Shown here: piece by piece, positions 828 through 19,256 of the stretch | Numbering within the stretch: the stretch's first letter is position 1 | Layout of the letters: each line of letters opens with the position of its first letter | Virus record (IMG/VR): IMGVR_UViG_3300047462_000191 | Coordinates: 1-34,001 of that record | DNA from: a virus | DNA: 34,001 bases | Direction: 5' to 3' (one strand) | The notes under the pieces: model-generated | The model's input: only the letters and a program-made list of their open reading frames with translations | What the model was told of the DNA's origin: nothing | Database searches by the model: none | Made by a program: the position numbers and the translations under genes

Positions 828-1313
828 GTGTTTCATGCCAGCAGAATGCCCGTGCCACCATCCTCGCGCCAGCCGTGCCGCTCGGTATTTGAGGGCGTCA
901 CCCGCGCCCGCCGTAACAACATGCGGGCCAACAAGGGGAAAGACACGAAGCCCGAGATGAAGGTCCGCCGTGCCCTGCATGCCCTGGGCTACCGCTACCG
1001 CCTACACAGGGCGGACCTTCCGGGACGGCCGGACATCGTGTTCCCCGGACGCCGGGCCGTCGTCGAGATCCGCGGATGTTTCTGGCACCAGCACCCGGAA
1101 CCGGTCTGTAAGAAAGCCACCGTCCCAGCGACCAGGCGGGAATGGTGGATGGCAAAGCTCAAGCGAAACGTTGCTCGGGACGCTGAGAACGTCACGACCC
1201 TGGAAGCCGCGGGCTGGCGGGTGTCTGTCGTGTGGGAGTGCGAACTCCAGCGGGATCCCGAGCTGGTCTGGCGGCGTCTTACCGAATTCCTCGGGCCTGC
1301 GGGACCATCATAG
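828..1313 (+). CDS. vsr: Vsr-type very short patch repair endonuclease, variant active site
   Basis: The protein of up to 161 residues matches the Vsr family: GKDTKPEMKVRRALHALGYRYRLHR, PGRPDIVFP (with the metal-binding Asp), GCFWHQH, then VPATRREWW and GWRVSVVWECEL near the C-terminus. Vsr nicks beside T:G mismatches created by deamination of 5-methylcytosine and normally accompanies Dcm-type methyltransferases; one lies 1.5 kb away. In E. coli Vsr the segment is THGCFWHHHHC; here Thr63-His64 read Ile-Arg and one zinc-ligand Cys is replaced, so activity is doubtful. The start is uncertain: 828 is a GTG with no clear ribosome site, while a strong AAGGAGG at 786 precedes an ATG at 796 in another frame. 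ATG codons at 846 or 921 are alternatives. Confidence 0.8.
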   Translation: MFHASRMPVPPSSRQPCRSVFEGVTRARRNNMRANKGKDTKPEMKVRRALHALGYRYRLHRADLPGRPDIVFPGRRAVVEIRGCFWHQHPEPVCKKATVPATRREWWMAKLKRNVARDAENVTTLEAAGWRVSVVWECELQRDPELVWRRLTEFLGPAGPS

Positions 1314-1832
1314 TCAGGCTTTCGCCCGAAGTCTTTGAGCGCGCTTCTGGGCCGCCGCGTAGAGCCGGATGGCAGCTCTGGTTGCCGGATCGGAAGTATC
1401 CTGCGACAGCCCTAGTTTCTCCATCTGCTTGGTGTTCCACTCCGGCATGGTGGGGATGTCCACGCCGGGCGGCAATCCGTTCGAGCGTATCCATGTCTCG
1501 AGCCGCCCCCTCAGGACGGGATCCTCCTTGCCTATCAGGCGCCGATGCAGCATCCCGACGGCATATTCGGTTGCGTAAGCCCGGAGCGTAAAGGCGACCG
1601 GATCCTCGTCTTCGAGCCGGTCATTCGCCCAGATGAGCCTCTTTTGAGGTGTGGTCACAGTTTTGACCCTGACATGCCGGGCGGCCAAAACCTCCACCGC
1701 CGCCCGCAGGCTCGACGCCGGTACCCTGTAGTGGCGGGCCACCGCTCTCATTGCTTCGTCGACTTCGAGAGGAAGTGCCTCCTTTTGTCGCCGCGAGATC
1801 CCATTGATCCCGATCTTCGCTCTTCCTGGCAT
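1314..1832 (-). CDS. Unknown protein between vsr and the restriction candidate
   Basis: I do not recognise this 172-residue protein. I chose the ATG at 1832 because the open frame upstream of it overlaps the divergent gene at 1893 and reads like non-coding sequence. It is basic at both ends and mostly predicted helical, with a segment at residues about 22-45 (EVDEAMRAVARHYRVPASSL) that could be a small DNA-binding helical motif. Its stop abuts the vsr stop with no gap, and it diverges from the restriction enzyme candidate with 60 bp between starts, which is where a controller protein of a restriction-modification system might sit. That role is a guess. Confidence 0.5.
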   Translation of the reverse strand: MPGRAKIGINGISRRQKEALPLEVDEAMRAVARHYRVPASSLRAAVEVLAARHVRVKTVTTPQKRLIWANDRLEDEDPVAFTLRAYATEYAVGMLHRRLIGKEDPVLRGRLETWIRSNGLPPGVDIPTMPEWNTKQMEKLGLSQDTSDPATRAAIRLYAAAQKRAQRLRAKA

Positions 1833-1892
1833 CCCTAGCCACCCGGTTGATCGAGCGCCTAGTCTCGCCGAGAACCGGAGTCGAAGTCCACG

Positions 1893-2780
1893 ATGCCTCA
1901 CCGCGCCATACAGCCGCTCTATGAGGCACTTGTCCGACGAGCTGCCGTCGCCGGGGTGCGGGATCTCAAAGGCGACGTCACGGCCCAGAAGCTGATCGAC
2001 CTGGTGACCGCCTGCCGGGTTTTCCTTGATACGCTGGATCGCCGGTCGCTGATATCGAACGTGCCCGGCAAATCGTATTTCATGTTCCACGATGTCGGTC
2101 GGAACAAGCTGTCGAGATCCGTGAATGTGGATCTCTATATCGACGATCTGGATGTCGACCACGTGCGGGCCGCCTTGTCATGCCAGACCGACGGCTTCAC
2201 GTCCGAGGCTCTGACCAGGATCGTCTACACCGCAGCTGCCTCGTATTGCTGCACGGCCGACATCCTGAAGGAAAGCGACCAGAAGACGCCGGGGACATTC
2301 TTCGAAGTCCTTATCGGTCACATTGTCGCCAGAGCTCTCGACGTGAACCCCGAGCAACAGATCAGGGTGCCGACCCTCGATATCGACGTCACCATCCCAA
2401 CTGATTACGTCTTCGACCTCGGCCCTCTGAAAAACAGGGTCCATCTGCCGATCAAGATTTCAACGAGAGAGCGGGTCGTTCAGGTTTGGGCACATCAGCG
2501 GGTGCTGGACGGTATGCACGGTGTCGCCCGCTTCAAAGGCGTCCTGGTGGCGATGGCCGAGACGAACAAGCAGAAGAACATCTCTGTCGTTGAGGTCTGC
2601 CTGCCGAACCAGTGGACGGCGTATCAAATGTATATCGCGCAGATGTATCGGGTTTACTACCTCGATATCCCGCAGCCTTATCTGCGCCTGAAGGAGCGGT
2701 ATCCGTTTATTCAAGTGAAGCCGTTTGGCGACTTCTACGGAGAGGTTGCGAAGATCGAACGGTCGGGCGTCGGCGAGTAG
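1893..2780 (+). CDS. Candidate type II restriction endonuclease
   Basis: This 295-residue protein lies tail to tail with a C5-cytosine methyltransferase, the usual place for its cognate restriction enzyme. Around residues 165-190 there is an acidic beta strand (VTIPTDYVFDLG) followed about 15 residues later by LPIKIST, which fits a PD-(D/E)xK nuclease core with an Ile in place of the usual acidic residue before Lys. After it come RERVVQVWAHQRVLDG and KGVLVAMAET. I recall similar proteins beside cytosine methyltransferases, but I cannot name the specificity. The ATG at 1893 has only a weak CGGAG 12 bases upstream. The nuclease call is inferred from the motif and the context; it could be another R-M accessory protein. 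Confidence 0.55.
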   Translation: MPHRAIQPLYEALVRRAAVAGVRDLKGDVTAQKLIDLVTACRVFLDTLDRRSLISNVPGKSYFMFHDVGRNKLSRSVNVDLYIDDLDVDHVRAALSCQTDGFTSEALTRIVYTAAASYCCTADILKESDQKTPGTFFEVLIGHIVARALDVNPEQQIRVPTLDIDVTIPTDYVFDLGPLKNRVHLPIKISTRERVVQVWAHQRVLDGMHGVARFKGVLVAMAETNKQKNISVVEVCLPNQWTAYQMYIAQMYRVYYLDIPQPYLRLKERYPFIQVKPFGDFYGEVAKIERSGVGE

Positions 2781-3926
2781 CTATTCGGCGGCTAGCAGAA
2801 CCGGTTGTCGGACCCTGCTGCGGGCCTTGACCCCGACGACGTCCTTTGTCTTCACGGCTGCCTTGGCGGCATCCGCAGCGTCGAGAACCTTCTTCAGGGC
2901 AAGGCCGACGGCCCGTCCCAAGGGCGGGGGCACTGCATTACCGATCTGCACCCGGACATCATACCGGGTGCCGTAGAACCGGAACTCGTCAGGAAAGCCC
3001 TGCAACCTTGCACCTTCTCGGAGTGTGAGAGACCTGTGTTGCTCAGGGTGACCGTATCGTCCACGGGTGAAGGAATCGAAGCCAGCGGTGATCGTGGGAC
3101 ACTGCCCCGTCCACTCTAGTCGACCGTAGACATCCGGCCAGCCGCCTTTAGTGACATCCACGCCGTTGTGGCACTCGAGGCGCAGCTGCGCGGGGATGTC
3201 CGGCCAGCCGCCGCCCTGGGGGACGTGCTTAAATCGCTCCAGGTTCAGCGCGGTGATCTTGCACTGGATATGATTTGCGATTGTCGGATGTTCGGTGAAA
3301 TCGGCAGGCGGCGGCGGGAGATCGCCGATGGCATCGCGGACCGTCACCATCTTGCGAGACTTCACGAGGACCGGCTTGGCCGAAGACACGTCCTTGCGGA
3401 CGCCGATCATGATGAAGCGGTCTCGCTTCTGCGCCAGCCCGAAGTCGGAGGAATTCACAAAGAAGCGGTGGACGTTGTAGGCGGTCATCTCTTCTTCGAT
3501 GTGATCGATCAGTTCGAGACCACGCTTCTGTCCGAAAATCTTAACGTTCTCGAACACGAACGAACGGGGATTGATCTCCTTGACCAGCCGGACGTATTCG
3601 CGAACCAGGCTGTTGCGCTCATCCAAGGCCAGATGCGCCCCGCGCTTCTGCTTGGAGAAGCCCTGACACGGCGGGCCGCCGGATAGCACATCGACGCCGG
3701 ACAAGCCGAGGGTCTGCAAAAGAGAACGGCCGTCCATCTCCCGCACGTCAGCCACTTCGGCATGCGGAGCCACGTTGCGATTGTATGTCTGCACCGCCCA
3801 CGGGTCGATGTCACAGGCGTAGCGAACGTCGAATCCGGCCCGGCCGAGACCGAGTGACAGGCCGCCCGCTCCGGCAAAGAGCTCGATGACAGTCGGACGA
3901 GTCGTTTTTTTGGTCGCGGGATCCAT
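2781..3926 (-). CDS. DNA (cytosine-5) methyltransferase, Dcm type
   Basis: The 381-residue protein carries the C5-cytosine methyltransferase motifs in canonical order: motif I ELFAGAGGLSLGLG (AdoMet binding), motif IV GGPPCQGFSKQ with the catalytic Cys, motif VI FVFENV, motif VIII QKRDRFIMIG, a target-recognition region with two WPD-containing segments, and motifs IX-X ending GNAVPPPLGRAVG. It transfers a methyl group from AdoMet to carbon 5 of cytosine in a specific site, protecting DNA from the likely partner nuclease. I take the ATG at 3926 (MDPATKK) because motif I follows after about 15 residues as usual; the frame stays open to a GTG at 4007. Its TAG stop abuts the convergent gene's stop. 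The recognition site cannot be read from sequence. Confidence 0.93.
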   Translation of the reverse strand: MDPATKKTTRPTVIELFAGAGGLSLGLGRAGFDVRYACDIDPWAVQTYNRNVAPHAEVADVREMDGRSLLQTLGLSGVDVLSGGPPCQGFSKQKRGAHLALDERNSLVREYVRLVKEINPRSFVFENVKIFGQKRGLELIDHIEEEMTAYNVHRFFVNSSDFGLAQKRDRFIMIGVRKDVSSAKPVLVKSRKMVTVRDAIGDLPPPPADFTEHPTIANHIQCKITALNLERFKHVPQGGGWPDIPAQLRLECHNGVDVTKGGWPDVYGRLEWTGQCPTITAGFDSFTRGRYGHPEQHRSLTLREGARLQGFPDEFRFYGTRYDVRVQIGNAVPPPLGRAVGLALKKVLDAADAAKAAVKTKDVVGVKARSRVRQPVLLAAE

Positions 3927-4059
3927 GAAAAGGAGTGACTCACGGCCTAGGCTCAGGGTCAAGCGCCTACGAGCGAAAGATGCCCTCCCATGTGGTGCCC
4001 TTGGCACATTAAATGGTATGTCGGATGGGGATCGGCGGTCGGCAGAAGGATGGTAAACC

Positions 4060-6786: not shown

Positions 6787-7673
6787 CCTTCACCGTATCC
6801 GACATAATCCTGAGCGCTCAGCCGGGATCCCCGGTGACGTGGGTGTCGTTCCCTTACGCCGCAGGTGCACCGGCGATCATGCGCAACCTGGACGGCCGCT
6901 GGGACAAGATGGCGTCCGCCTGGGGGATCCCCAATGCCCGCGTGGATGACCTGCGCAAGCGGCTGCCGCAGATCGCCAAAATGGTTTTCCTCCAGCAGGA
7001 AATCGACCGGAGCAACGGGCGGACGCCGAAGCCATCGCCGACGGCCCCGGCGTTTCGGTCGGCGGCCGCCGCTGTGCCGGTTGCGGTTGTGGGAGATGAC
7101 TGGATCAAGCTGCCTGTGCATCCGCAGTCTGCCCGGCGCGCGCTGGAGGACATCGGATGCTGCGCGCAGGCGTCGCTGTATTTCGCTCCCGACCAGGACA
7201 TCGCCGACCAGGCTCTCGCCGTCATCCAATCCTTCGTAGAAGCTGACCAGGCGGCCGCCGACCGGATCGCCGCCTCCAGAGCTGCGCTTGCGGAGTCCCT
7301 TCGCCGCGAGGGCGCCGCAAAAGAGGACGCCGAAGCCCAGGTCAGGACGGCCAGGCTCGACGCCATGGAAGAGATCCGCGCCGCGTGGCCAACCGCCCGC
7401 TTCGTGAAGATCGAGAGCCGGACGCTGGACGGCAGGGGATCCCCTTGGGTGCGGATCACAACGCCATCCGGGAAAACCGTTTACGCCGAGGAACTGGTCA
7501 AGAGCGGCGTGGACCGTATCAGCCGCCGGGTGACTGTCGAGTGGATGAAGGCGCCAGTGTTCCCCGCAGGATCTGGTTTCACGACGGAAGTAGAGACAAC
7601 CTCCAACGGGAAGCCGTATCAGCGGAAGCTTGCCAACCACACGGTCACCCCCGCCGAGCCGGAGGGCGAGTGA
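6783..7673 (+). CDS. Early operon protein 2, HARP-like N-terminus and shared C-terminal domain
   Basis: The 296-residue protein starts at the ATG overlapping the previous stop (ATGA) and ends in TGATG with the helicase start. Residues about 17-60 (VSFPYAAGAP, then LDGRWDKMASAWGIP) read like a HARP module, which in SMARCAL1 directs the SNF2 motor to forked DNA. A helical, Ala-rich coiled-coil-like stretch (residues about 175-210) follows. The last 85 residues repeat the preceding protein's C-terminal domain: AWPTARFV, SPWVRI, KAPVFPAGSGFTTEV. Being wedged between its paralogue and the helicase, it is probably an accessory subunit of that enzyme. The function is not established. Confidence 0.6.
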   Translation: MTFTVSDIILSAQPGSPVTWVSFPYAAGAPAIMRNLDGRWDKMASAWGIPNARVDDLRKRLPQIAKMVFLQQEIDRSNGRTPKPSPTAPAFRSAAAAVPVAVVGDDWIKLPVHPQSARRALEDIGCCAQASLYFAPDQDIADQALAVIQSFVEADQAAADRIAASRAALAESLRREGAAKEDAEAQVRTARLDAMEEIRAAWPTARFVKIESRTLDGRGSPWVRITTPSGKTVYAEELVKSGVDRISRRVTVEWMKAPVFPAGSGFTTEVETTSNGKPYQRKLANHTVTPAEPEGE

Positions 7674-9133
7674 TGCTGGCATTTCAGACGCGAACGGCGC
7701 TCATGGCGCATCAGGAAGACGCCGTGGTGAAACTGCTGCCCGGGCGCGTGGGCGGACTTTACATGGACATGGGGACCGGCAAGAGCCGGACACTGATCGA
7801 GCTGGCGCGCATCCGGTCGGGGAAAATCGACCATGTGATCTGGTTCTGCCCGGTGTCGTTGAAGAAAACCGTCCGGCAGGAGATCCTGAAGCACACGGAC
7901 TGCCTGCCCGAGGACATCAACGTGTTCGGCGAGAAGACCTGCAAGGCCAACCTCCCGGCGGCGCTATGGCATATCGTCGGGATCGAATCCATGGCGAGTT
8001 CGCCGCGGGTGGTACTGGCGGTCAACGCCCTGGTCACCGACCGTACCTTCGTTGCAGTTGACGAAAGCAGCTACATCAAGGGGCACAAGAGCCTGCGTAC
8101 GCGGCGGATCACTCAGATAGCGTCGCGGGCGCGCTACCGGGCGATCCTGACAGGGACACCGTTTTCGCAAGGCGTCGTGGACCTGTTCTCGCAGATGGCG
8201 TTCCTGTCACCGAAGATCCTCGGTTACCAGTCGTTCTGGTCGTTTCAGAACGCGCATCTGGTCTACGAGCAGCGCACGAACAGGGAAACCGGAAAGACGT
8301 TCAACACTGACCGAATAATCGGCTCCCATGACGTCGCGTTCTTGGCCGACCGGATCGCTCCCTACGTCTTCCAGGTGACGAAGGAACAGTGCCTGGATCT
8401 TCCGAGCAAGATTTACGCAGACCGCTACTGCTCGATGACGGAGGATCAGCAGGACTGGCACAAAGCCGCCAAGATCGAATTCATGGCTCAGGCTGACGAG
8501 TACGACTTCCGGCCGATCTGGCTGTTCAAACTATTTACCGCGTTGCAAACGATCTCTTGCGGGTGGTGGAACCGGACCAACGCCGACGGCACTTCGACGA
8601 TGATCGACATCCAGAATGACCGGCTGGCGCTGCTGTCGGCGACCATCACGGACATCGCGCCGGACGAGAAGATCATCATCTGGTCCAAGTTCACGAAGTC
8701 GGTCGACCAGATCATCAAGATGATCGAAGAGGAATACGGCCCCGGACAGGCCGCCCGCTTCGATGGCACGCTGTCCGAAGAGAAGAGGGCGGCCAATCTG
8801 GCGCGCTGGCGCGGTCCCGGCTGCCGATTTCTGGTGAGCACCCAGAGTTCGGGCGGCCACGGGCTGACGCTGACCGAGAGCGCGAACGCCATCTTCTACT
8901 CGCATGCGTTCAAATACAGTGAATGCGTCCAGGCCGAGGATCGCATCCACCGGATCGGCCAGCTGCGGCCGCCGACGTACGTATCGCTCTGGAGCGACAG
9001 CAAGATCGACGAGCGGATATCGAATGCTTTGATGACAAAAGGCAGTGCACTGGGCGCCTTCATCGCGGAGGTAGAGAAGGTGAAAGCGACGGGATCAAAG
9101 GAGAGCGTCAGGGATCTCGTCCGCAGTCTCTGA
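7673..9133 (+). CDS. SNF2-family DEAD/DEAH-type helicase
   Basis: The 486-residue protein has the SNF2/superfamily 2 motifs in order: Walker A MDMGTGKSRT (residues about 30-40), motif II VAVDESSYIKG in place of DEAH, motif III LTGTPFSQGVVDLFSQM, and in the second RecA-like domain IIIWSKFTKSVDQI, VSTQSSGGHGLTLTESANAI and motif VI QAEDRIHRIGQ. Such enzymes use ATP to translocate on double-stranded DNA or to remodel forks; phage versions are common in replication and recombination regions. The ATG at 7673 overlaps the upstream stop, so the three genes 5068-9133 form one tightly coupled unit. It lacks its own HARP domain, which may be supplied in trans by the upstream proteins. Confidence 0.9.
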   Translation: MLAFQTRTALMAHQEDAVVKLLPGRVGGLYMDMGTGKSRTLIELARIRSGKIDHVIWFCPVSLKKTVRQEILKHTDCLPEDINVFGEKTCKANLPAALWHIVGIESMASSPRVVLAVNALVTDRTFVAVDESSYIKGHKSLRTRRITQIASRARYRAILTGTPFSQGVVDLFSQMAFLSPKILGYQSFWSFQNAHLVYEQRTNRETGKTFNTDRIIGSHDVAFLADRIAPYVFQVTKEQCLDLPSKIYADRYCSMTEDQQDWHKAAKIEFMAQADEYDFRPIWLFKLFTALQTISCGWWNRTNADGTSTMIDIQNDRLALLSATITDIAPDEKIIIWSKFTKSVDQIIKMIEEEYGPGQAARFDGTLSEEKRAANLARWRGPGCRFLVSTQSSGGHGLTLTESANAIFYSHAFKYSECVQAEDRIHRIGQLRPPTYVSLWSDSKIDERISNALMTKGSALGAFIAEVEKVKATGSKESVRDLVRSL

Positions 9134-9279: not shown

Positions 9280-9315
9280 ATGCAGCAGAATACCAATTCC
9301 GGACTCGTAGCGTGA
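9280..9315 (+). CDS. 11-codon leader ORF
   Basis: An ATG at 9280 follows GGAGGGGG by four bases and encodes MQQNTNSGLVA before a TGA at 9313. That stop overlaps the ATG of the next gene (TGATG), which has no ribosome site of its own. This is the arrangement of a coupling leader peptide: ribosomes loaded here could reinitiate on the downstream gene. It is seen directly in the sequence, but translation is unproven. A GGGGC/GCCCC hairpin (9242-9254) lies just upstream. Confidence 0.45.
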   Translation: MQQNTNSGLVA

Positions 9316-10217
9316 TGATCTGCATTGGCATGGACGCCGCGCAGAAGTCCGCATGCATCGCAGATTACTGCGAGAAGCATGCCGTCAAGCGCACCTACGT
9401 CCTCTCCCCGGCGAAGTTCGCCTTCGATTGCAGCATCCCCGGTGCCCGTGACGTCGAGTGGGACGAGATCATCATGTATCGCACGTTCTACCCCCTGCTT
9501 CAGGAGATCGGTTCTGACAGCCTGGTAGTGGTGAACGAGTGCCTGCGGACGACGAACCGAAACGATCTCACCTACAACTGCATCCGGCACTTCCTGGCGC
9601 AGGCCGGGCATCAGATCGTGTTCAACTGGCTCCCGGCGATCAGCGACGCAGCAGACTTCATGACGCTGTTCGACTTCGATACGAAGAGCCGCTGGAAGCG
9701 CGAGAAGTTCGACGCCGACTTCGTGCATGAGAACGCGGCCGTCTCGGTCATCCACCGGGAGCCGACCTTCTCCAAGGTCGACGTTATCACGGACGCCAGG
9801 ACGAAGAAGGCTTACGCCGCTGAGAAGGCCAAGTTGTTCGCAGGCATCGAGGGCAAGGATCCGCACACGATCCCCCGGAACCTGCACCTCGTGGGCGGCA
9901 AGGCACGCATGGCGGCCGCCGATCCCGCCGGTGACTACATCGGGCGCAACAACCGTCTCGGGCATGCTTCGATGGCCGTCTACAAGGCCGACGCCTACCC
10001 GGTTGCCCCCTACATAGTAGCCGAGTTCCCGCACTCCTTCCTCGACTTCGCGGACTTCCTGGCTCTCTCCGGCCAGCGGTCGGTATCCGCGCTGGTGTCC
10101 GATCTCCCGGTCGATGGCTGGTATTTCCAGCGCTACCAGGAGTGGGCCGAGCGCCTTGCCGGATTGAACGCTTGCCTCACCCCCGCCGCGGCTCTTCCCG
10201 CAGCCGTCGCAGCATAG
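9315..10217 (+). CDS. Unknown protein with degenerate P-loop, upstream of ibrA-like gene
   Basis: I do not recognise this 300-residue protein. Its first strand and loop read MICIGMDAAQKSACIADY, which fits a Walker A with Gln replacing the second Gly (G-x4-Q-K-S). Near residue 75, DSLVVVNECLR looks like a Walker B strand followed by Asn-Glu, and a further strand (GHQIVFNWLP) follows. This suggests an altered P-loop NTPase fold. The C-terminal third has aromatic acidic stretches and no known motif. The start is a GTG at 9312 or the ATG at 9315, both dependent on the leader ORF. It leads the PAPS-reductase, ParB and methyltransferase genes, so it probably belongs to the same system. Confidence 0.6.
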   Translation: MICIGMDAAQKSACIADYCEKHAVKRTYVLSPAKFAFDCSIPGARDVEWDEIIMYRTFYPLLQEIGSDSLVVVNECLRTTNRNDLTYNCIRHFLAQAGHQIVFNWLPAISDAADFMTLFDFDTKSRWKREKFDADFVHENAAVSVIHREPTFSKVDVITDARTKKAYAAEKAKLFAGIEGKDPHTIPRNLHLVGGKARMAAADPAGDYIGRNNRLGHASMAVYKADAYPVAPYIVAEFPHSFLDFADFLALSGQRSVSALVSDLPVDGWYFQRYQEWAERLAGLNACLTPAAALPAAVAA

Positions 10218-10226
10218 GAGGCAACC

Positions 10227-11354
10227 ATGGCACGCCAGGTTTACGACAACAGCCGCAACGTCCTTGAAGCCGCCCGTGAGCGGATCTCCATGGTGTTCGA
10301 CAACTTCGAAACGATCCATGTCTCGGTTTCCGGCGGCAAGGACTCCACCGTGCTGGCCCACCTCGCCCTCGTGGAGGCTCACAAGCGCGGCCGCAAGGTC
10401 GGGATGTTCTTTCTCGACGAGGAGGTCGTCTACGACAGCACGGTCAAGCAGGTCGACTACCTGATGACCCTGTTCCCCGAGAACACTATCCCTCTCTGGC
10501 TCCAGATCCCGTTCCGGCTGACCAACGCAACCTCGCTGACCGAGAGCCAGCTGATCTGCTGGGAGCCGGGCAAACACAAGATTTGGATGCGCCCGAAGCA
10601 GTCCTATTCGATCCAGCATAAGCCGTGGGATGTCGCCAAGGAAAAGGTTGCCGACAAGACCAAGGGCTTCGGGTTCTACGACGCCATCAGCAACTTCGAG
10701 GCTTGCTACAAGGACACGGCGTTCCTGGTCGGTCTGCGGGCAACCGAGTCCATGCACCGGTTCCTGACGATGGTGAAGCATCCCATCGACGTCGGCGGCC
10801 AGAAGGTCTTTTGGGGCACCAAGAAGGGCGCGAACGCATCGCTCTACCCGGTCTTCGACTGGACCTTCTCCGACGTGTGGAAATACATCGGCGACCAGGG
10901 GCTGAAGTATTCCTCGATCTACGACATGCAGTTCAAGAAGGGCGTCGGTATCAACGAAATGCGGGTGTCCAGCCTGATCCACGAAAAGTCTTTCCACGCC
11001 ATCTGCGACCTGCCGGAGTTTGAGCCGAAGACTTACGAGCGGCTGGTCGAGCGGATCAAGGGCATCGCGTTCGCGCAGGAGACCGGCAAGGCGTCGAGGA
11101 TGTTCGCGGCGTCGAAGCTGCCGAAGGGCTATCGCAAGTGGCGGGACTACCGCGACTTCCTTCTGGAGACCTACCCGGATCCGGCGCTGGCCGCGAAGTT
11201 CAGCACCCGCTTTGCCCGGCATCTGGAGAACGAGTTCGTCGCCCGCCAGCAGGTCAGGCAGCTCGTGCTGAACGACTACGAGAACAACCTGCCGGTTGCC
11301 AACAAGGAGGATCCCCGCGAGGCGCTGGTCCGCCATTACATGGAGGTGCTGTGA
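10227..11354 (+). CDS. PAPS-reductase-family PP-loop protein, IbrA-like (DUF3440 type)
   Basis: The 375-residue protein has an ATP-pyrophosphatase PP-loop SGGKDSTVL at residues about 35-43, then FFLDEEVVYDST, the GLRATES motif and YPVFDWTFSDVWKY, all typical of the phosphoadenosine phosphosulfate reductase superfamily. Its long C-terminal extension (KLPKGYRKWRDYRDFLLETYPD onward) is the DUF3440 type found in IbrA, which with IbrB regulates immunoglobulin-binding eib genes in E. coli and is phage- or prophage-linked. DndC of the phosphorothioate system is another relative. The GGAGG site seven bases before the ATG is strong, and its stop overlaps the next ATG (TGATG). It probably activates a substrate with ATP; real sulfate assimilation is unlikely because no assimilation genes accompany it. 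Confidence 0.88.
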   Translation: MARQVYDNSRNVLEAARERISMVFDNFETIHVSVSGGKDSTVLAHLALVEAHKRGRKVGMFFLDEEVVYDSTVKQVDYLMTLFPENTIPLWLQIPFRLTNATSLTESQLICWEPGKHKIWMRPKQSYSIQHKPWDVAKEKVADKTKGFGFYDAISNFEACYKDTAFLVGLRATESMHRFLTMVKHPIDVGGQKVFWGTKKGANASLYPVFDWTFSDVWKYIGDQGLKYSSIYDMQFKKGVGINEMRVSSLIHEKSFHAICDLPEFEPKTYERLVERIKGIAFAQETGKASRMFAASKLPKGYRKWRDYRDFLLETYPDPALAAKFSTRFARHLENEFVARQQVRQLVLNDYENNLPVANKEDPREALVRHYMEVL

Positions 11355-11962
11355 TGACCGCCTATTTCGTGAACACCATCGAAGAGTTCCATGCGGCCCG
11401 CGCCGCCATGAAGCCGGTCTACATCAAGAGCAAGAAATACGGCCGCATCCCGGTCCCGTGCGCCAACACGCTGCTGGTGTCGCGAGACCTGATCAAGGCC
11501 AACAACTACAACCCGAACGCGGTCTCCAAGGACAAGATGCGCTTGCTCAAGCAGTCGATCCGCGACAACGGGTTCTGCTTCCCGATCGTCGCCATCTTCG
11601 ACGAGGCGGAGCAGCTGTTCATCATCGTCGACGGCTTCCACCGCAGCAGCATGGGCGGCGCCGATTGGCTGGATCTCGACTACATCCCGGTCGCCCTGGT
11701 CGATCACGACATCAGCAAGCGGATGTATGCCACCGTCCAGTTCAACAAGGCGCGCGGCGTCCATCAGGTCGACATGGACGCCGACCTGATCAAGGCGCTC
11801 ATCGATCAGGGCAACTCCGAGGAGGAAATCTGCGAACACCTCGGCGTCGATCTGGACACGGTGCACCGATACAAGCAGCTGACCGGCATCGCCGGGCTTT
11901 TCGCCAGGGCGGCCTACTCCCCGTCGTGGGCGGCCATCGAGGGGGTTACGGAAAATGTCTGA
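11354..11962 (+). CDS. ParB/Srx-domain protein, IbrB-like
   Basis: The 202-residue protein carries the ParB N-terminal fold: ISSYNPN-like NNYNPNAVSKDKMRLLKQSI (residues about 47-70), NGFCFPIVAI, and the nucleotide-binding box as IVDGFHRSSMG instead of the GERR form. IbrB and DndB-type proteins use similar DGxHR boxes. After it come a helical region and a helix-turn-helix-like segment (SEEEICEHLGVDLDTVHRYKQL). It starts inside the stop of the PP-loop gene and overlaps the methyltransferase by eight bases, so the three are made together. Partners of IbrA-like proteins are nearly always this type. Whether it binds CTP, cuts DNA or regulates transcription is not visible here. Confidence 0.85.
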   Translation: MTAYFVNTIEEFHAARAAMKPVYIKSKKYGRIPVPCANTLLVSRDLIKANNYNPNAVSKDKMRLLKQSIRDNGFCFPIVAIFDEAEQLFIIVDGFHRSSMGGADWLDLDYIPVALVDHDISKRMYATVQFNKARGVHQVDMDADLIKALIDQGNSEEEICEHLGVDLDTVHRYKQLTGIAGLFARAAYSPSWAAIEGVTENV

Positions 11963-12620
11963 TCTCTGGGAATACGGCGGCGCCTACAAGGATCTGGACA
12001 TGTCCGGGGAGATCGCGCTTCCGAACGGCAGCATCGTGTCGGTGTGCGATCTGGTCGAGCGGATGCCCGAATACATGAAGCGGGCAGATACCCTGTTCAT
12101 CGACCCGCCATGGAATACCGGCAACATCCGGTCCTTCTACACCAAGGCCGACGAGCCGCTGCCGGTCTTCGATTTCCTCGAGTTCACGGCTGCTCTTTGG
12201 AGCCGCATCGACGAGATCAAGCCGAGGACGCTCTACGTCGAGATGGGGAAGCAGCACCTCTGGCGTTACCTCGAGCAGGCGGAGCGCCGCTACAAATATG
12301 TGACCTTCTACAACAGTACCTACTACGACAAGCGCGACAACCTGACCTACGTCATCCACGCGACGGACGACTTCGCGACCCGACGTCACAAGGCGCTCGA
12401 GGGCATGGATGAAGCGAAGATCATCGCATGGGTGTGCGCCAACACGGACTACGGGTGCATCGGCGATCTCTGCATGGGGCGCGGTCTGGTCGGCCGGAAC
12501 GCTTATCTCGCAGGGAAGTCCTTCGTCGGCACGGAGCTCAACAGAAAGCGTCTGGCCGTGCTGGTGGACTGGATCCTGAAGGCAGAGGCCACCGGAGCAA
12601 AGGAGTCCCGTCATGCATGA
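11955..12620 (+). CDS. DNA methyltransferase with DPPW motif (beta-type order)
   Basis: The 221-residue protein has motif IV FIDPPWNTGN at residues about 48-57, the catalytic signature of amino-methyltransferases acting on adenine N6 or cytosine N4. The AdoMet-binding part comes later, as GDLCMGRGLVGRNAYLAGKS followed by FVGTELNRKRL, which gives the circularly permuted beta-class order (IV before I). There is little target-recognition sequence between them, so specificity may be relaxed or set by a partner such as the ParB protein. It overlaps genes on both sides by eight bases. A role in modifying phage DNA during early infection is an inference from the operon. Confidence 0.83.
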   Translation: MSDLWEYGGAYKDLDMSGEIALPNGSIVSVCDLVERMPEYMKRADTLFIDPPWNTGNIRSFYTKADEPLPVFDFLEFTAALWSRIDEIKPRTLYVEMGKQHLWRYLEQAERRYKYVTFYNSTYYDKRDNLTYVIHATDDFATRRHKALEGMDEAKIIAWVCANTDYGCIGDLCMGRGLVGRNAYLAGKSFVGTELNRKRLAVLVDWILKAEATGAKESRHA

Positions 12621-12939
12621 GGATATCGAACTGATCAGGCAGGCGGGCACCTTGCTCTTCGGCGAGTTCTGGCAGCGCTCCATCGCCCGCGCTCTGGGGC
12701 CGCTCCATCCGGACGGCGCGCGCAACCAGGTGGATGACCGGCTGGTGCGGAGATGGGTAGCCGGGCAGCGCGATATCCCGGGCTGGGTGCTGACCGGGAC
12801 GGCGACCCTCCTGGATCAGGAGCGCCGGGAGCTGGAGTCCTCGTGCCTGAGGATGCACAGGCTTGCCAGTGAGATGCGCAAAATCAGGGCGTCACAGATC
12901 ACCCCGCATGAAAGTTTCGCCGATATCACAGAAAGTTGA
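12613..12939 (+). CDS. Repressor-like DNA-binding protein (paralogue of the 4631 gene)
   Basis: The 108-residue protein repeats the conserved block of the left repressor-like gene: WQRSIARALG, HPDGAR, DDRLVRRW, AGQR, IPGWV. About 60 percent of the 58 aligned positions are identical by eye. The termini differ. It is the last gene of the early operon, overlapping the methyltransferase by eight bases, and is followed by the repeat array at 13034. A Cro-like early regulator opposing the left repressor is one reading; an array-binding protein is another. Confidence 0.65.
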   Translation: MHEDIELIRQAGTLLFGEFWQRSIARALGPLHPDGARNQVDDRLVRRWVAGQRDIPGWVLTGTATLLDQERRELESSCLRMHRLASEMRKIRASQITPHESFADITES

Positions 12940-13033: not shown

Positions 13034-13132
13034 ATTGAAGGATTACATTGCCAGACTGAAGGATTACCACTTTTTCAAGTAATCCTTCAGTCTTCAAAGT
13101 AATCCTTTCGTCCTTCAAGTTGATCTTTCATG
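13034..13132. repeat. Iteron-like array of about 20-bp repeats with 15-bp inverted repeat
   Basis: The core TGAAGGATTAC occurs twice on the plus strand (cores at 13035 and 13056, 21 bp apart). Its complement GTAATCCTTC occurs at 13079 and, with one change, at 13099; a decayed copy (GTTGATCTTTC) starts at 13119. The three right-hand copies form tandem 20-bp units (13073, 13093, 13113) with the shared frame TTCAAGTAATCCTTC. The two central copies make a perfect 15-bp inverted repeat (13053-13067 with 13079-13093) around an 11-base loop. The even one-to-two-turn spacing is typical of iterons or multi-site operators. The array lies in an AT-rich gap between the early operon and the 13174 gene, so a replication origin or a control region is likely. 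There are no spacers, so it is not CRISPR. Confidence 0.75.
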
Positions 13133-13173
13133 ATTATTGTGACCTTAGAAAGAAGCAACCCAAGGTCAATCCC

Positions 13174-13662
13174 ATGCAAGATTTTCTAGACTATGTTTCT
13201 ACAACCCCGCTGCGGACAGTCGCACCGCCGCTGTGGTATCCGACCGTGATCCCCGGCACTCCCGATCTACTGGTCGTGAGGATCCCGGAGTTGATGGCCC
13301 AGCAGCGCAAGGACGGCCCGGACACGCTCAATCGCTATTACAAGGTCGTCTTCGCTGAAACGGTCGGCGACCAGACTTACCTGAACGGATGCCTGGACAA
13401 GCCGCTTCCGGTGGCGGGGAACACCGTCAGCTTCCGCTTGTCGATCGACAAGACGAACCTCCGCCCCTCTGCCTTCCCTTTCGACGGCGAGATCAAGTTG
13501 CTCCACTACGGCCCATCCGCTGATGGTTGGCCGCACCTGGCCGTGGTCATGCTGTCGGAAAATACAGACGGTCTGCGACTTTGCCGTCTCCGCTATCAAT
13601 GGTTCGCCTTCGCGACAGAACAGGAGGCCATGGCACGCCTACGGTTCATCCGTTCTCATTGA
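13174..13662 (+). CDS. Unknown protein downstream of the repeat array
   Basis: I chose the ATG at 13174 with AAGGT about eight bases upstream; an in-frame TTG at 13120 would begin inside the last repeat. The 162-residue protein has an N-terminal segment MQDFLDYVSTTPLRTV and then reads as a beta-rich domain (PDLLVVRIPEL, RYYKVVFAETVG, GNTVSFRLSIDKT, HLAVVMLSE). No family is recognised. Being alone between the repeat array and the shared terminator, it may be a regulatory or origin-associated gene driven from the array. Confidence 0.6.
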   Translation: MQDFLDYVSTTPLRTVAPPLWYPTVIPGTPDLLVVRIPELMAQQRKDGPDTLNRYYKVVFAETVGDQTYLNGCLDKPLPVAGNTVSFRLSIDKTNLRPSAFPFDGEIKLLHYGPSADGWPHLAVVMLSENTDGLRLCRLRYQWFAFATEQEAMARLRFIRSH

Positions 13663-16261: not shown

Positions 16262-17326
16262 TTAGGCGGCGAGCGGTGCGGTCGACCGGCGGATGCGGAG
16301 GCTGGACAGCTTCATCCCCGGGACTTCGATCCACCTGTGCGTGCAGTAGCTCAGGCCCGCCGTCACGATGAGGAACACCGCGATAGACACCGGCACCGAC
16401 ATCGCCCCGGCCTCATGAACAGCGGACACGACGGTCAGGACGATCCAGTGGACCAGGTAGACGCTGTAGCTCCGGGCGGACACCGCACGAACCAGCGGCC
16501 CGATCACGCCCAGGCTTCCAACCTTCAGGGCGGCCGCCACGAGCAGCGCGCATCCGGCGGCGGCCAGCGTCAGCGTTCCAGGCTGCCATTGCGTCGCCGC
16601 GCTCAGGATGCCGCAGGCGTATGGCGACCACGCGACTGAGATCAGCCCGACCCCGGCGACCAGGCACGAGACGGGTTTCCGAAAGAGCGAGGATCCCTGC
16701 CGCTCCAGCTGGGCAAGGACAACTCCCCACCCGATGCCGTCGATGTTGTAGAGGGCGGCGAAGTAGACTTGCGGCTGTCCGTAGGTCATGGCGCGCAGCA
16801 CCAGCGGGAAAGCCAGGAAGGCGATGATGACCGGCCACACGGCACGGCGTCCGAAGAGGCGGGCGGCGGTCAGAAGGCTGGTGGCGAACAGCAGGTAGAA
16901 GAGTTCCTCAACTGTCAGCGACCAGCTCGTGCCCATGAAGGCGCCGAGGGTGGTGTGCGGGATCTCCGAGGTCAGGTTCTGCGTCATCGTGGCGAACTGG
17001 ACAACCGCAAGGAAATCCGGCCGGGCGAGGCAGACCGCGACGGACAGGATGAAGAAATACAGAGGCAGCGTCCTGACCCACCGGCGGCACATGAAATTAA
17101 GCCAGACGCCCGGCGTTGCGGTGTCGACCAGGCCGAGCAGGATGCGGCCGATGAGGTATCCTGATAAGCCGTAGAAAGCCTCGACTGCGACGCCGCCGAT
17201 GGGGAAAACCCACGAAGGTGTCGGGCCGTCGCCGATCACCAGGACGGCCGCATGGAACAGCACGACGGTCAGGACGGCGACGGCGCGGATCAGGTCGAGT
17301 CCTTGAGAGCGGGTAGATACCTGCAT
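16262..17326 (-). CDS. Acyltransferase 3 family membrane protein (O-antigen modification type)
   Basis: The 354-residue protein starts at an ATG with AGGGA seven bases upstream. It begins GLDLIRAVAVLTVVLFHA, with the conserved R and H of acyltransferase-3/OafA proteins, then FYGLSGYLIGRIL, RRWVRTLPLYFF and WSLTVEELFYLLF (all diagnostic), and about ten hydrophobic spans up to YSVYLVHWIVLTVV. These enzymes move acetyl or other acyl groups onto lipopolysaccharide or exopolysaccharide at the inner membrane. In a prophage late region it is a typical serotype-conversion moron, changing the receptor of the lysogen. That role is inferred; the enzyme class is firm. Confidence 0.9.
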   Translation of the reverse strand: MQVSTRSQGLDLIRAVAVLTVVLFHAAVLVIGDGPTPSWVFPIGGVAVEAFYGLSGYLIGRILLGLVDTATPGVWLNFMCRRWVRTLPLYFFILSVAVCLARPDFLAVVQFATMTQNLTSEIPHTTLGAFMGTSWSLTVEELFYLLFATSLLTAARLFGRRAVWPVIIAFLAFPLVLRAMTYGQPQVYFAALYNIDGIGWGVVLAQLERQGSSLFRKPVSCLVAGVGLISVAWSPYACGILSAATQWQPGTLTLAAAGCALLVAAALKVGSLGVIGPLVRAVSARSYSVYLVHWIVLTVVSAVHEAGAMSVPVSIAVFLIVTAGLSYCTHRWIEVPGMKLSSLRIRRSTAPLAA

Positions 17327-17342: not shown

Positions 17343-19127
17343 TCAGGCTGCGACCGAGTAGGCTTTCACGCGGATACGGGGCCTCTCGACCATGTGGTTA
17401 TCGTTCTTCGTGGCTCTCCACTTCGGACCGCGCATCGTGACAATTGCCCGTTTTCCATTCGGGTAAGTGATCACCAGGCTGTGGGACCAAGACGACGGGC
17501 CGCGGTTGTAGGTCATGTCGAGATCTCCGGAGACGCCGGACGACATGTTGCCTCCCCAGATACCTGCTGCGTGGGTGTGAGCTGAGATCGTCCGCATACC
17601 GATGACGCGGTATCCTTTGGTCGATCCGCGGCTCCCGTTGACGCCCCGGTGACCGTGCAAGGAGTTCTCGATCCCGCCGCTCTCCGGGCAGGTGATGAAG
17701 GACTCGTCCTCTCGCAGGAACCGGACGCTTCCCAGCGCGGGCGCCTTTTCGCGAACGGCCGCCTCGAACGGCAAGAACTCCGCACCGCTCTCGATGGACT
17801 GGAATATCTTGTAGTTCCAGTAGTGCCAGTAACGCTGGTTGCCCCTGTCCTTGTGGCCTTCCGCGCGCTCGAGCCATGTCATGAAAGCCTGATCGTGATT
17901 GCTTTCGACCACGACGGTCTGGCACCACGGACGGGTCGCCGACGATAGGAAGGCGGCGCACTGCTCCATCCCCTCTTCGACGCTCTCATCCCGCTTGGCG
18001 TATTGCCGTGCAAGGAAATACGGGCTGTCGACGTTGTGGTGATTACGCACCGTGAAGTCTGTCAGGTCATGGATGAACTGGTATTTCGGCTTCAGCGCAT
18101 CGAGCATTCCGCCCGGAGCCCAGATCGCATCTTCCAACGCGCGATCCGTGAACTTCTCGCGGTGGATATCGCCCGGCGTGATCGCCTCGATGTGAGAGGC
18201 ATGCGATCCGGTCGGGGTGTAGACGCGGTCCAGATCCTGAAAGCAGCCGTCGGAGGTCGCGTTGATCTGCCGGACGAACCAGGATCCGTCCTCCTCCACT
18301 TCGACAACCAGAGCGCCGAGGATATGGTGATGTTCGGCTTTCTGACCGGCTTTGCGCGGGATGTAGTTCGACAGGGTTACTGCGCCGGTGGTGTAGAGGA
18401 ACCGCGCCGGAGAGCCCTTCATCGACGCCATCGGCCGCATTTCGTGCTTGGTGTGTCCGAAGATCCCGGAAGATGTCTTTGTGAAGGATTCGAGCCCGGA
18501 GAGAGGATCGACCGCGCTCGGCGAGATATTCATGTCGGCGCAGAGCACGAGGTCCGGAGCCAGCCTGATCGTGCCGGTGACCACGTTTCCTTGGATGGCG
18601 GGGTCGTACCAGCTGCTCTCGCCCTCGACGAGAACCTCGTGCGGCTTGCCGTAGGCGTTCGCGTTGTAGGAACAGCGGACAACCAGCAGCCTGGCGTTCC
18701 GCTCCTTCTGATAGGTCGCCACGGATGCCAGGAAGTCGGCATGAACGAAGGTGTTGTTCTGGGCCAGGGCGACCAGGTAGACGCCGGATTTGCCGACCCG
18801 GATCTCGCGGGCCTCGGGAGCCTCGTATGTGCCGCCTGCGACGGGCTTCTCAGGCTTCGGTGCCTTCTCGGTCTTAGCGGTCTGCGGCGATCCCTCAAGG
18901 ACTGGAGATTTCGGCCCGGTAAGCAGGGCGGCGATCATCCGCTGGCTTTCAACCAAAGAGGCCATCATCTCTTCGACTGAAGAAGTCTTCGGTGTGATCG
19001 GCACGACTTTCTTGTATCGCTTGAAGAATGTCGTCTTGGCCATCCCGGCCGCCGCTGCCGCTGAGCTTATCGTGCCGTGCGTCTTGACGAGAGCCGCGTA
19101 GTCTATGCTTTCAGTTGCATCCCGCAT
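17343..19127 (-). CDS. HTH-metallophosphoesterase fusion protein
   Basis: Started at the ATG at 19127 (GGAG nine bases upstream; an ATG at 19157 is open but unsupported), the 594-residue protein begins with a helix-turn-helix (VKTHGTISSAAAAAGMAKTT, residues about 13-35) and a charged linker. The rest carries calcineurin-type metallophosphoesterase motifs in order: GDIH (about 319), HDLTDF and NHH (about 350-365), ESNHD (about 407), HGHRG (about 490) and SAHTH (about 516). This set binds two metals for phosphodiester hydrolysis. Phage proteins of this type are known but their role is unclear; the substrate cannot be read. It may be regulatory, DNA-modifying, or a host-takeover moron. It lies downstream of an AT-rich gap. 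Confidence 0.8.
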   Translation of the reverse strand: MRDATESIDYAALVKTHGTISSAAAAAGMAKTTFFKRYKKVVPITPKTSSVEEMMASLVESQRMIAALLTGPKSPVLEGSPQTAKTEKAPKPEKPVAGGTYEAPEAREIRVGKSGVYLVALAQNNTFVHADFLASVATYQKERNARLLVVRCSYNANAYGKPHEVLVEGESSWYDPAIQGNVVTGTIRLAPDLVLCADMNISPSAVDPLSGLESFTKTSSGIFGHTKHEMRPMASMKGSPARFLYTTGAVTLSNYIPRKAGQKAEHHHILGALVVEVEEDGSWFVRQINATSDGCFQDLDRVYTPTGSHASHIEAITPGDIHREKFTDRALEDAIWAPGGMLDALKPKYQFIHDLTDFTVRNHHNVDSPYFLARQYAKRDESVEEGMEQCAAFLSSATRPWCQTVVVESNHDQAFMTWLERAEGHKDRGNQRYWHYWNYKIFQSIESGAEFLPFEAAVREKAPALGSVRFLREDESFITCPESGGIENSLHGHRGVNGSRGSTKGYRVIGMRTISAHTHAAGIWGGNMSSGVSGDLDMTYNRGPSSWSHSLVITYPNGKRAIVTMRGPKWRATKNDNHMVERPRIRVKAYSVAA

Positions 19128-19141
19128 TTCCAGGCACTCCG

Positions 19142-19256
19142 TAGTCCGAGAGTGCAATTAAATCACTGCTCCGAAACAAAAACCTAGCAACTCGAAGCAT
19201 TTGTAAACGCATTACTTTTGAATGCTTGCGTTTCGCAGTCAAAAGCGATGTTTTGT
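19142..19256 (-). promoter_or_regulatory. AT-rich intergenic region, probable promoter of the moron genes
   Basis: This stretch is far richer in A and T than its surroundings. It contains an inverted pair TTGTAAAC and GTTTACAA, and an imperfect hairpin AAACGCATT with AATGCTTGCGTTT. On the minus strand TTGACT lies upstream, but no convincing -10 box stands 17 bp later. It probably starts transcription of the phosphoesterase and acyltransferase, and may also terminate the upstream genes. Confidence 0.35.

Follow-up and report, generated by a model that had tools for sequence, protein, structure and literature searches.

What might a phage operon do that joins an IbrA/IbrB pair to an apparently dead DNA motor and a DNA methyltransferase? 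The IbrA/IbrB pair is widespread across phages and plasmids, yet it is hardly understood. The question is raised by the virus record IMGVR_UViG_3300047462_000191 (the window, that is, the whole 34,001-base stretch that we analyzed), whose open reading frames (ORFs) were checked by sequence and against Pfam and PHROGs. The record is that of a contractile-tailed phage, with genes for tail sheath, tape measure, baseplate, tail fibre, and endolysin on the minus strand. The plus strand carries a cassette with the order SNF2, leader, G1, IbrA, IbrB, MTa, and a small ORF. Our favoured explanation, to which we would give about half of our confidence, is that the cassette encodes a DNA-modification complex of adenine type, borne by the phage and driven by ATP, whose front end can be exchanged.

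The cassette begins with a SNF2-family helicase/translocase at 7673-9133 (the ORF opens at 7385, and relatives start near 7673). This protein matches SNF2-rel_dom (2.1e-12) and Helicase_C (1.2e-12) in Pfam, phrog_62 (3e-89), and the SNF2 profile that we built from the cassettes (619 bits). A leader ORF of 11 codons plus a stop follows at 9280-9315, and its TGA stop overlaps the likely ATG start of G1, at 9315, by 1 base (TGATG). Next, all on the plus strand, are G1 (9315-10217; 300 amino acids); an IbrA-like PP-loop ATPase with PAPS_reduct and DUF3440 domains and an intact SGGKDS motif (10227-11354); an IbrB-like ParB-fold protein with a C-terminal segment that resembles a helix-turn-helix (11354-11962); the methyltransferase MTa (11955-12620); and the small ORF (12613-12939; 108 amino acids), which matches phage families of unknown function. 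G1 and IbrA are separated by a gap of 9 bases, IbrA and IbrB overlap by 1 base, and both the IbrB/MTa and the MTa/small ORF overlaps are 8 bases. A first-pass annotation had described four genes translated as a single coupled unit. The overlaps hold at the leader, at IbrA/IbrB, and at IbrB/MTa, but not at G1/IbrA, and the SNF2 gene, which belongs to the unit, had been missed. That an IbrA/IbrB-like pair and a methyltransferase share one operon is confirmed by Pfam, by phrog_2159, and by the match of the methyltransferase model to beta-class enzymes. A scan for sigma-70 promoters gave no match.

Is this arrangement conserved? We searched IMG/VR with G1, IbrA, and the methyltransferase and GTDB genomes with G1, which yielded about 55 cassette loci. 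After removing IbrA copies above ~90% identity, we had 47 non-redundant loci. The first-pass annotation had made its proposal depend on the gene order recurring in other phages, and it does recur across these loci. G1 is present in all 47, IbrB in 43, and a methyltransferase in 41. The methyltransferase is either MTa, downstream (33 loci), or a second DPPW type, MTb, which sits upstream of G1 (8 loci); no locus among the 47 has both types. Loci that were found via IbrA at ~57% identity or above also carry G1 wherever the contig reaches. The small ORF is not among the neighbours that are conserved in at least five loci, so it is no conserved member of the cassette.

Neighbouring frames overlap at almost every G1-IbrA junction (41/42, with the window as the sole exception), and also at most IbrA-IbrB (37/41), IbrB-MTa (31/32), SNF2-G1 (20/29), and MTb-G1 (6/9) junctions. 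Among the loci with overlapping frames, G1 is 24-51% identical to the window's protein. Some of the loci are viral, and others lie on contigs from four or more bacterial phyla. By their record titles, the five cellular matches are from a deltaproteobacterium, Desulfobulbales, Bacteroidales, Synergistaceae, and the cultured Anaerobacterium chartisolvens; the other four are metagenome-assembled, and a binned phage contig is possible for these. In Anaerobacterium chartisolvens, the full set adjoins a run of lysin, baseplate-like, and tape-measure-like genes on the opposite strand. Judging from sequence and gene order, these appear to be phage tail-type genes, placed as in the window. Because the gene order occurs in dozens of independent contigs, it is not due to chance. 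We also looked for gene fusions that join cassette members, as proof of contact, and found none.

What is G1? Searches of Pfam, PHROGs, NCBIfam, PADLOC, and (by sequence) the PDB did not place it convincingly in any family, and tblastn with G1 against isolate phage and plasmid collections found no match. AlphaFold, given an alignment of 46 sequences, produced a confident model (predicted local distance difference test, or pLDDT, 94.7; predicted TM-score 0.90). The best Foldseek matches are the nucleosome-remodelling ATPases ISW1, ISWI, INO80, and Chd1 (best E 2.8e-8, query TM-score ~0.5-0.6), and there are also matches to viral SNF2 helicases, to Mot1, and to a 297-amino-acid phage protein (1.3e-20). 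With hhalign, G1 aligns to the cassette SNF2 profile over 168 columns with E = 1.7e-4 and a probability of only 49.5%. Walker A (GK[ST]) is missing from the N-terminal region of all 46 G1 sequences, 28 of which have NE at the DE position. In contrast, Walker A is kept in 21/23 of the cassette SNF2 proteins, and Walker A, DES, and motif VI are retained across that family. The predicted fold is strong evidence that G1 is a compact, catalytically dead SNF2-type helicase, and we infer that it was derived from the adjacent SNF2 gene. G1 had previously been described as a degenerate P-loop protein; given the SNF2 fold and the lack of Walker A in 46/46 sequences, it is instead a pseudo-SNF2 helicase, and an ordinary P-loop enzyme is ruled out. 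With G1, an inactive SNF2 motor is among the core components of a phage system. The theme of inactive Snf2 domains has so far been noted for DndH and PglZ (PMC12839542).

The window's IbrA matches PAPS_reduct (8.8e-14) and DUF3440 (8.4e-10), both over Pfam's curated cut-offs, and the SGGKDS motif is conserved in 35/35 sequences. The closest solved relatives of the IbrA profile, by weak and partial matches, are CysD sulfate adenylyltransferase (4.9e-4) and FAD synthase (1.6e-3), which are adenylyl-transferring PP-loop enzymes. IbrB matches phrog_2159, a phage ParB family (5e-43); for the window protein alone, the match to Pfam's ParB_N (0.002) is weak and under the cut-off. Its DGFHR and QFNKARGVH are instances of DGxHR and QFNxARGxH, which are both conserved in 31/31 sequences. 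When the profile is compared to solved structures, the ParB part of IbrB is nearest to Noc, ParB, and SbnI; designed repeat proteins score higher but cover only a short helical segment. Proteins of the ParB fold can bind CTP, ATP, or GTP (PMC12704722).

A few loci show variations around this pair. In the closest relative of the window (locus L002), a gene for a 179-amino-acid exonuclease-like protein lies between IbrA and IbrB (7975-8514). In two other loci, a second and diverged IbrA-IbrB pair follows directly after the first in the same operon (L025, 5637-7303; L029, 10436-12102). Listeria monocytogenes NCTC7974 has a SNF2-DUF3440-ParB triple (L125, 4803-7818) amid pyrH, frr, tkt, and lexA, on a record that is labelled as a plasmid despite these housekeeping neighbours. 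We considered whether this SNF2-IbrA-IbrB triple is a full cassette and rejected it, as the next methyltransferase is of another type; it looks like a cellular relative of the phage module, one without G1.

PADLOC's model for DndC matches one stretch of IbrA (1.2e-6), and a ParB-type partner recalls DndB, so IbrA might act as a DndC in the phosphorothioation of DNA, as in Dnd, Ssp, or type-4 BREX-like systems. We consider this very improbable, because the cysteine and partner-gene tests were negative and IbrA is nearest to adenylyltransferases. Specifically, no cysteine column is invariant among 46 IbrA sequences (the best is 39/46, with valine in the window). We found no cysteine desulfurase, DndD/E, SspB/C, or BREX gene among the neighbours conserved in at least five loci or among the window ORFs that were scanned, which were a part of the total, and PADLOC found no PglZ, BrxC, or BrxL of type-4 BREX in the ORFs of the cassette and the left end. 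The earlier view that simple phosphorothioation is unlikely thus holds up.

PMC4490671 lists IbrA and IbrB as co-activating the expression of prophage genes, which raises the possibility that the cassette is regulatory: IbrA/IbrB would co-activate expression, SNF2 and G1 would remodel transcription complexes or DNA-bound proteins (as Mot1 does), and methylation would be a switch. The similarity of G1's predicted structure to Mot1 and to nucleosome remodellers would fit, as would the helix-turn-helix-like C-terminus of IbrB. Regulation alone, however, leaves both the invariant active site of the PP-loop protein and the replacement of SNF2 by csf genes (described below) unexplained, and we judge it distinctly unlikely.

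The window's MTa barely matches Pfam's N6_N4_Mtase (0.12), and the profile of the MTa family matches M1.HpyAVI (named DpnA there; 1.3e-4). DPPW (motif IV), which is found in 25/28 sequences, comes before DLCMGRG (motif I). Foldseek with the AlphaFold model (pLDDT 94.4) gave the DNA N6-adenine enzymes M1.HpyAVI, CcrM, MboIIA, and M.BceJIV, with N4-cytosine enzymes lower down, so that the kin of MTa are mostly enzymes that form N6-methyladenine in DNA. On the strength of this model, MTa is a beta-class DNA amino-methyltransferase, and its target is probably the N6 of adenine. The idea that it lacks a recognition domain gains no support from its length: at 221 amino acids, MTa is near the size of M1.HpyAVI (232-240 amino acids). 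In loci L039, L113, L041, L045, L059, L068, and L021, MTa is followed by a family of 160-190 amino acids and unknown function. The window lacks this gene, and its ORF at 13120-13662 does not match the family.

What stands in front of this core? We defined the front ends by clustering all of the neighbours and by profile searches. Upstream of the core, 30/47 loci have an intact SNF2 helicase, while 11/47, or about a quarter, have a set of genes resembling the Csf complex of type IV-B CRISPR systems; the cassette's composition as first described was incomplete in this respect. No locus has both. The mutual exclusion is significant (Fisher p = 7e-7), with a p value that leans on the six loci with neither front end, of which several are truncated by contig ends. 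On a quick tree of IbrA with moderate support, the front-end label needs at least 6 changes, so the exchange happened repeatedly.

Besides Csf3 (TIGR03116; 11/11) and Csf1 (TIGR03114; 8/11), the loci with the second front end have Csf2, whose profile has type IV-B Csf2 (7jhy) as its best match in the PDB (3.6e-36). They usually have a second PP-loop protein as well, a relative of the CysH-like protein encoded in type IV-B loci on plasmids. The single-protein NCBIfam scores that we inspected fall short of the curated cut-offs, which makes these Csf proteins diverged members of their families. The window's ORFs have no Csf match, and the window represents the SNF2 form. A simple repeat scan of 15 loci found no CRISPR arrays near the csf genes, except that L042 has a repeat with a period of 51 bases.

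We also checked in reverse. Alignments of Csf2 and Csf3 were too divergent to serve as queries, so we searched with a single Csf2 protein or with an alignment of CysH. Of the 32 loci in viruses that we reached in this way and that have both Csf2 and Csf3, 4 carry the cassette and 28 do not, so type IV-B does not need it. Nor is the cassette present at the type IV-B loci on plasmids of Mycobacterium and Rhodococcus. In IMG/VR, csf/cysH loci are common in virus contigs, mostly without the cassette (L127-L160). A haloarchaeal plasmid (NZ_CP071309) has the run csf1, cas11-like ORF, csf2, csf3, cysH, MTb, IbrB, ORF, IbrA. The 261-amino-acid ORF in the place of G1 aligns to it over only 23 columns (hhalign E = 0.0095) and is too diverged to call.

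Could these genes be linked without sharing a function? Cargo regions of phages gather accessory genes, which might travel together though unrelated, and the exclusion of SNF2 and Csf might then be a sampling effect; that 6/47 loci have neither front end is in keeping with this. We give this little credence: frames overlap at nearly every junction despite the divergence of G1, the front ends have re-associated repeatedly on the IbrA tree, and in several of the loci with neither front end, the contig ends within the locus.

The front ends also bring to mind interference or superinfection exclusion, by analogy with DISARM, Zorya, Dpd, and type IV CRISPR. SNF2 or a Csf ribonucleoprotein would recognise invading DNA, the PP-loop and ParB proteins would act as the effector by spending nucleotides or by marking the target, with self DNA labelled by the methyltransferase. 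Consistent with this, the cassette SNF2 is most similar to ZorD, DpdE, and DrmD in PADLOC, genes for type IV effectors can take its place, and a related set is found on a haloarchaeal plasmid. On the other hand, we did not recognise a nuclease or other killing domain in the core, and PADLOC scans found no DrmA/B/C, ZorA/B, or Dpd partner genes; the DISARM-type matches were only weak (SNF2 as DrmD-like and a C5 methylase as DrmMII-like). This explanation seems unlikely to us.

Our favoured explanation, DNA modification, starts from the gene set, order, coupling, folds, motifs, and front-end exclusion that we observed. What stays constant is a DNA methyltransferase, a dead motor, and two proteins that use nucleotides, while the variable part engages DNA or RNA, which suggests a modifying complex with an interchangeable delivery head (either a translocating motor or an RNA-bound filament). 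In the window's form, SNF2 would translocate on double-stranded DNA; in the sister systems, a type IV-B-like Csf ribonucleoprotein and CysH would take its place. G1 would serve as a scaffold or DNA clamp, and IbrB, bound to a nucleoside triphosphate, as a ParB-type switch or loader. IbrA would use ATP via its PP-loop to adenylylate the substrate, and MTa would methylate the amino group of adenine or join IbrA in making a larger modification. Most likely, this would mark the phage genome against host nucleases, or else mark or silence competing DNA. We infer that all of the products belong to one complex and act on DNA, and likewise what the chemistry of IbrA and the biological role are.

Several points weigh against this explanation. 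The evidence for it is all from sequences and predicted structures, the similarity of IbrA to adenylyltransferases is slight, and conserved operons can also serve regulation or interference. Many other phage contigs have IbrA-IbrB without G1 or the cassette methyltransferase, so the pair does not need them. Also, plasmid pFV113-g1-2 of Fusobacterium varium has IbrA-IbrB-MTa with no G1 or SNF2 annotated beside it.

More tentatively, and with some doubt, we propose a DNA-modification or marking system, without a name as yet, in which a single effector module (pseudo-SNF2, the PP-loop protein as adenylyltransferase, the ParB protein as switch, and the DNA methyltransferase) can be targeted either by the type IV-B-like complex or by the SNF2 motor, the two being exchangeable. 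If so, then some type IV-B complexes would direct the covalent modification of DNA, rather than its cleavage or silencing.

Elsewhere in the window, a type II restriction-modification set occupies the left end (828-4007). It comprises a Vsr-like endonuclease (828-1313, plus strand; 1e-25), a match to REase_II (1893-2780, plus strand; 4.5e-28), and a C5-cytosine methylase (2781-4007, minus strand; 2e-60). On the minus strand, an O-acetyltransferase (16262-17326) and a "DNA transfer protein" (17343-19157; phrog_1745, 5e-165) lie between the endolysin and tail fibre genes; the O-acetyltransferase could alter the host surface. Directly 3' of the cassette, at 13036-13130, AAGGATTAC/GTAATCCTT repeats cluster in direct and inverted order, with a perfect 15-base inverted repeat (13053-13067/13079-13093). 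The cluster looks like an iteron or operator array.

How does the cassette compare to known systems? We found no paper that describes the gene set, in agreement with the first-pass annotation's impression of a little-described system; the literature searches largely did not reach subscription papers and preprints, so a prior description is possible. A glacier virome paper reports IbrA/B on a phage with type I-E CRISPR. There is a fair chance that the system is of a new kind. By domain tests, the operon contains an IbrA/IbrB pair, and this is the only known kind that it belongs to. As in E. coli and in the DUF3440-ParB pairs of other phages, a PAPS_reduct and DUF3440 protein adjoins a ParB-domain protein of the same families. 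Unlike those pairs, the cassette's subfamily of IbrA (~57-67% identity) is accompanied by G1 and a methyltransferase. The other phage IbrA proteins that we found are ~26-34% identical, and their loci have neither G1 nor a clear cassette methyltransferase, although about nine have SNF2.

The cassette shares with Dnd, Ssp, and type-4 BREX a PP-loop enzyme of the PAPS-reductase type, a ParB-type partner (DndB), and an inactive Snf2 domain (DndH, PglZ). It differs in having no desulfurase, cysteine signature, or partner genes and in its additional beta-class DNA methyltransferase. With DISARM, Zorya, and Dpd it shares a SNF2-family motor, and in DISARM and Dpd this motor occurs together with DNA-modifying enzymes. 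To our knowledge, a core of PP-loop, ParB, and pseudo-SNF2 proteins is no part of these systems.

Type IV-B systems (Csf1, Cas11, Csf2, Csf3, and a CysH-like protein) have a PP-loop protein that is reported to lack the catalytic cysteine, and the function of the complexes and of this partner is not established (PMC8175902). The type IV CRISPR papers that we consulted describe csf1-3, cas11, and cysH-like genes, but word searches of their text turned up neither ParB nor a methyltransferase linked to the locus. The window differs from type IV-B in having no csf gene; in 11 sister loci, homologous csf1/2/3 and cysH-like genes accompany the cassette. The cassette ties type IV-B to IbrA/IbrB, as the motor and the IV-B-like complex replace each other on one core. 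This replacement predicts that they share a job, namely bringing a modification enzyme to nucleic acid, and the cassette gives a handle on the unexplained role of type IV-B systems.

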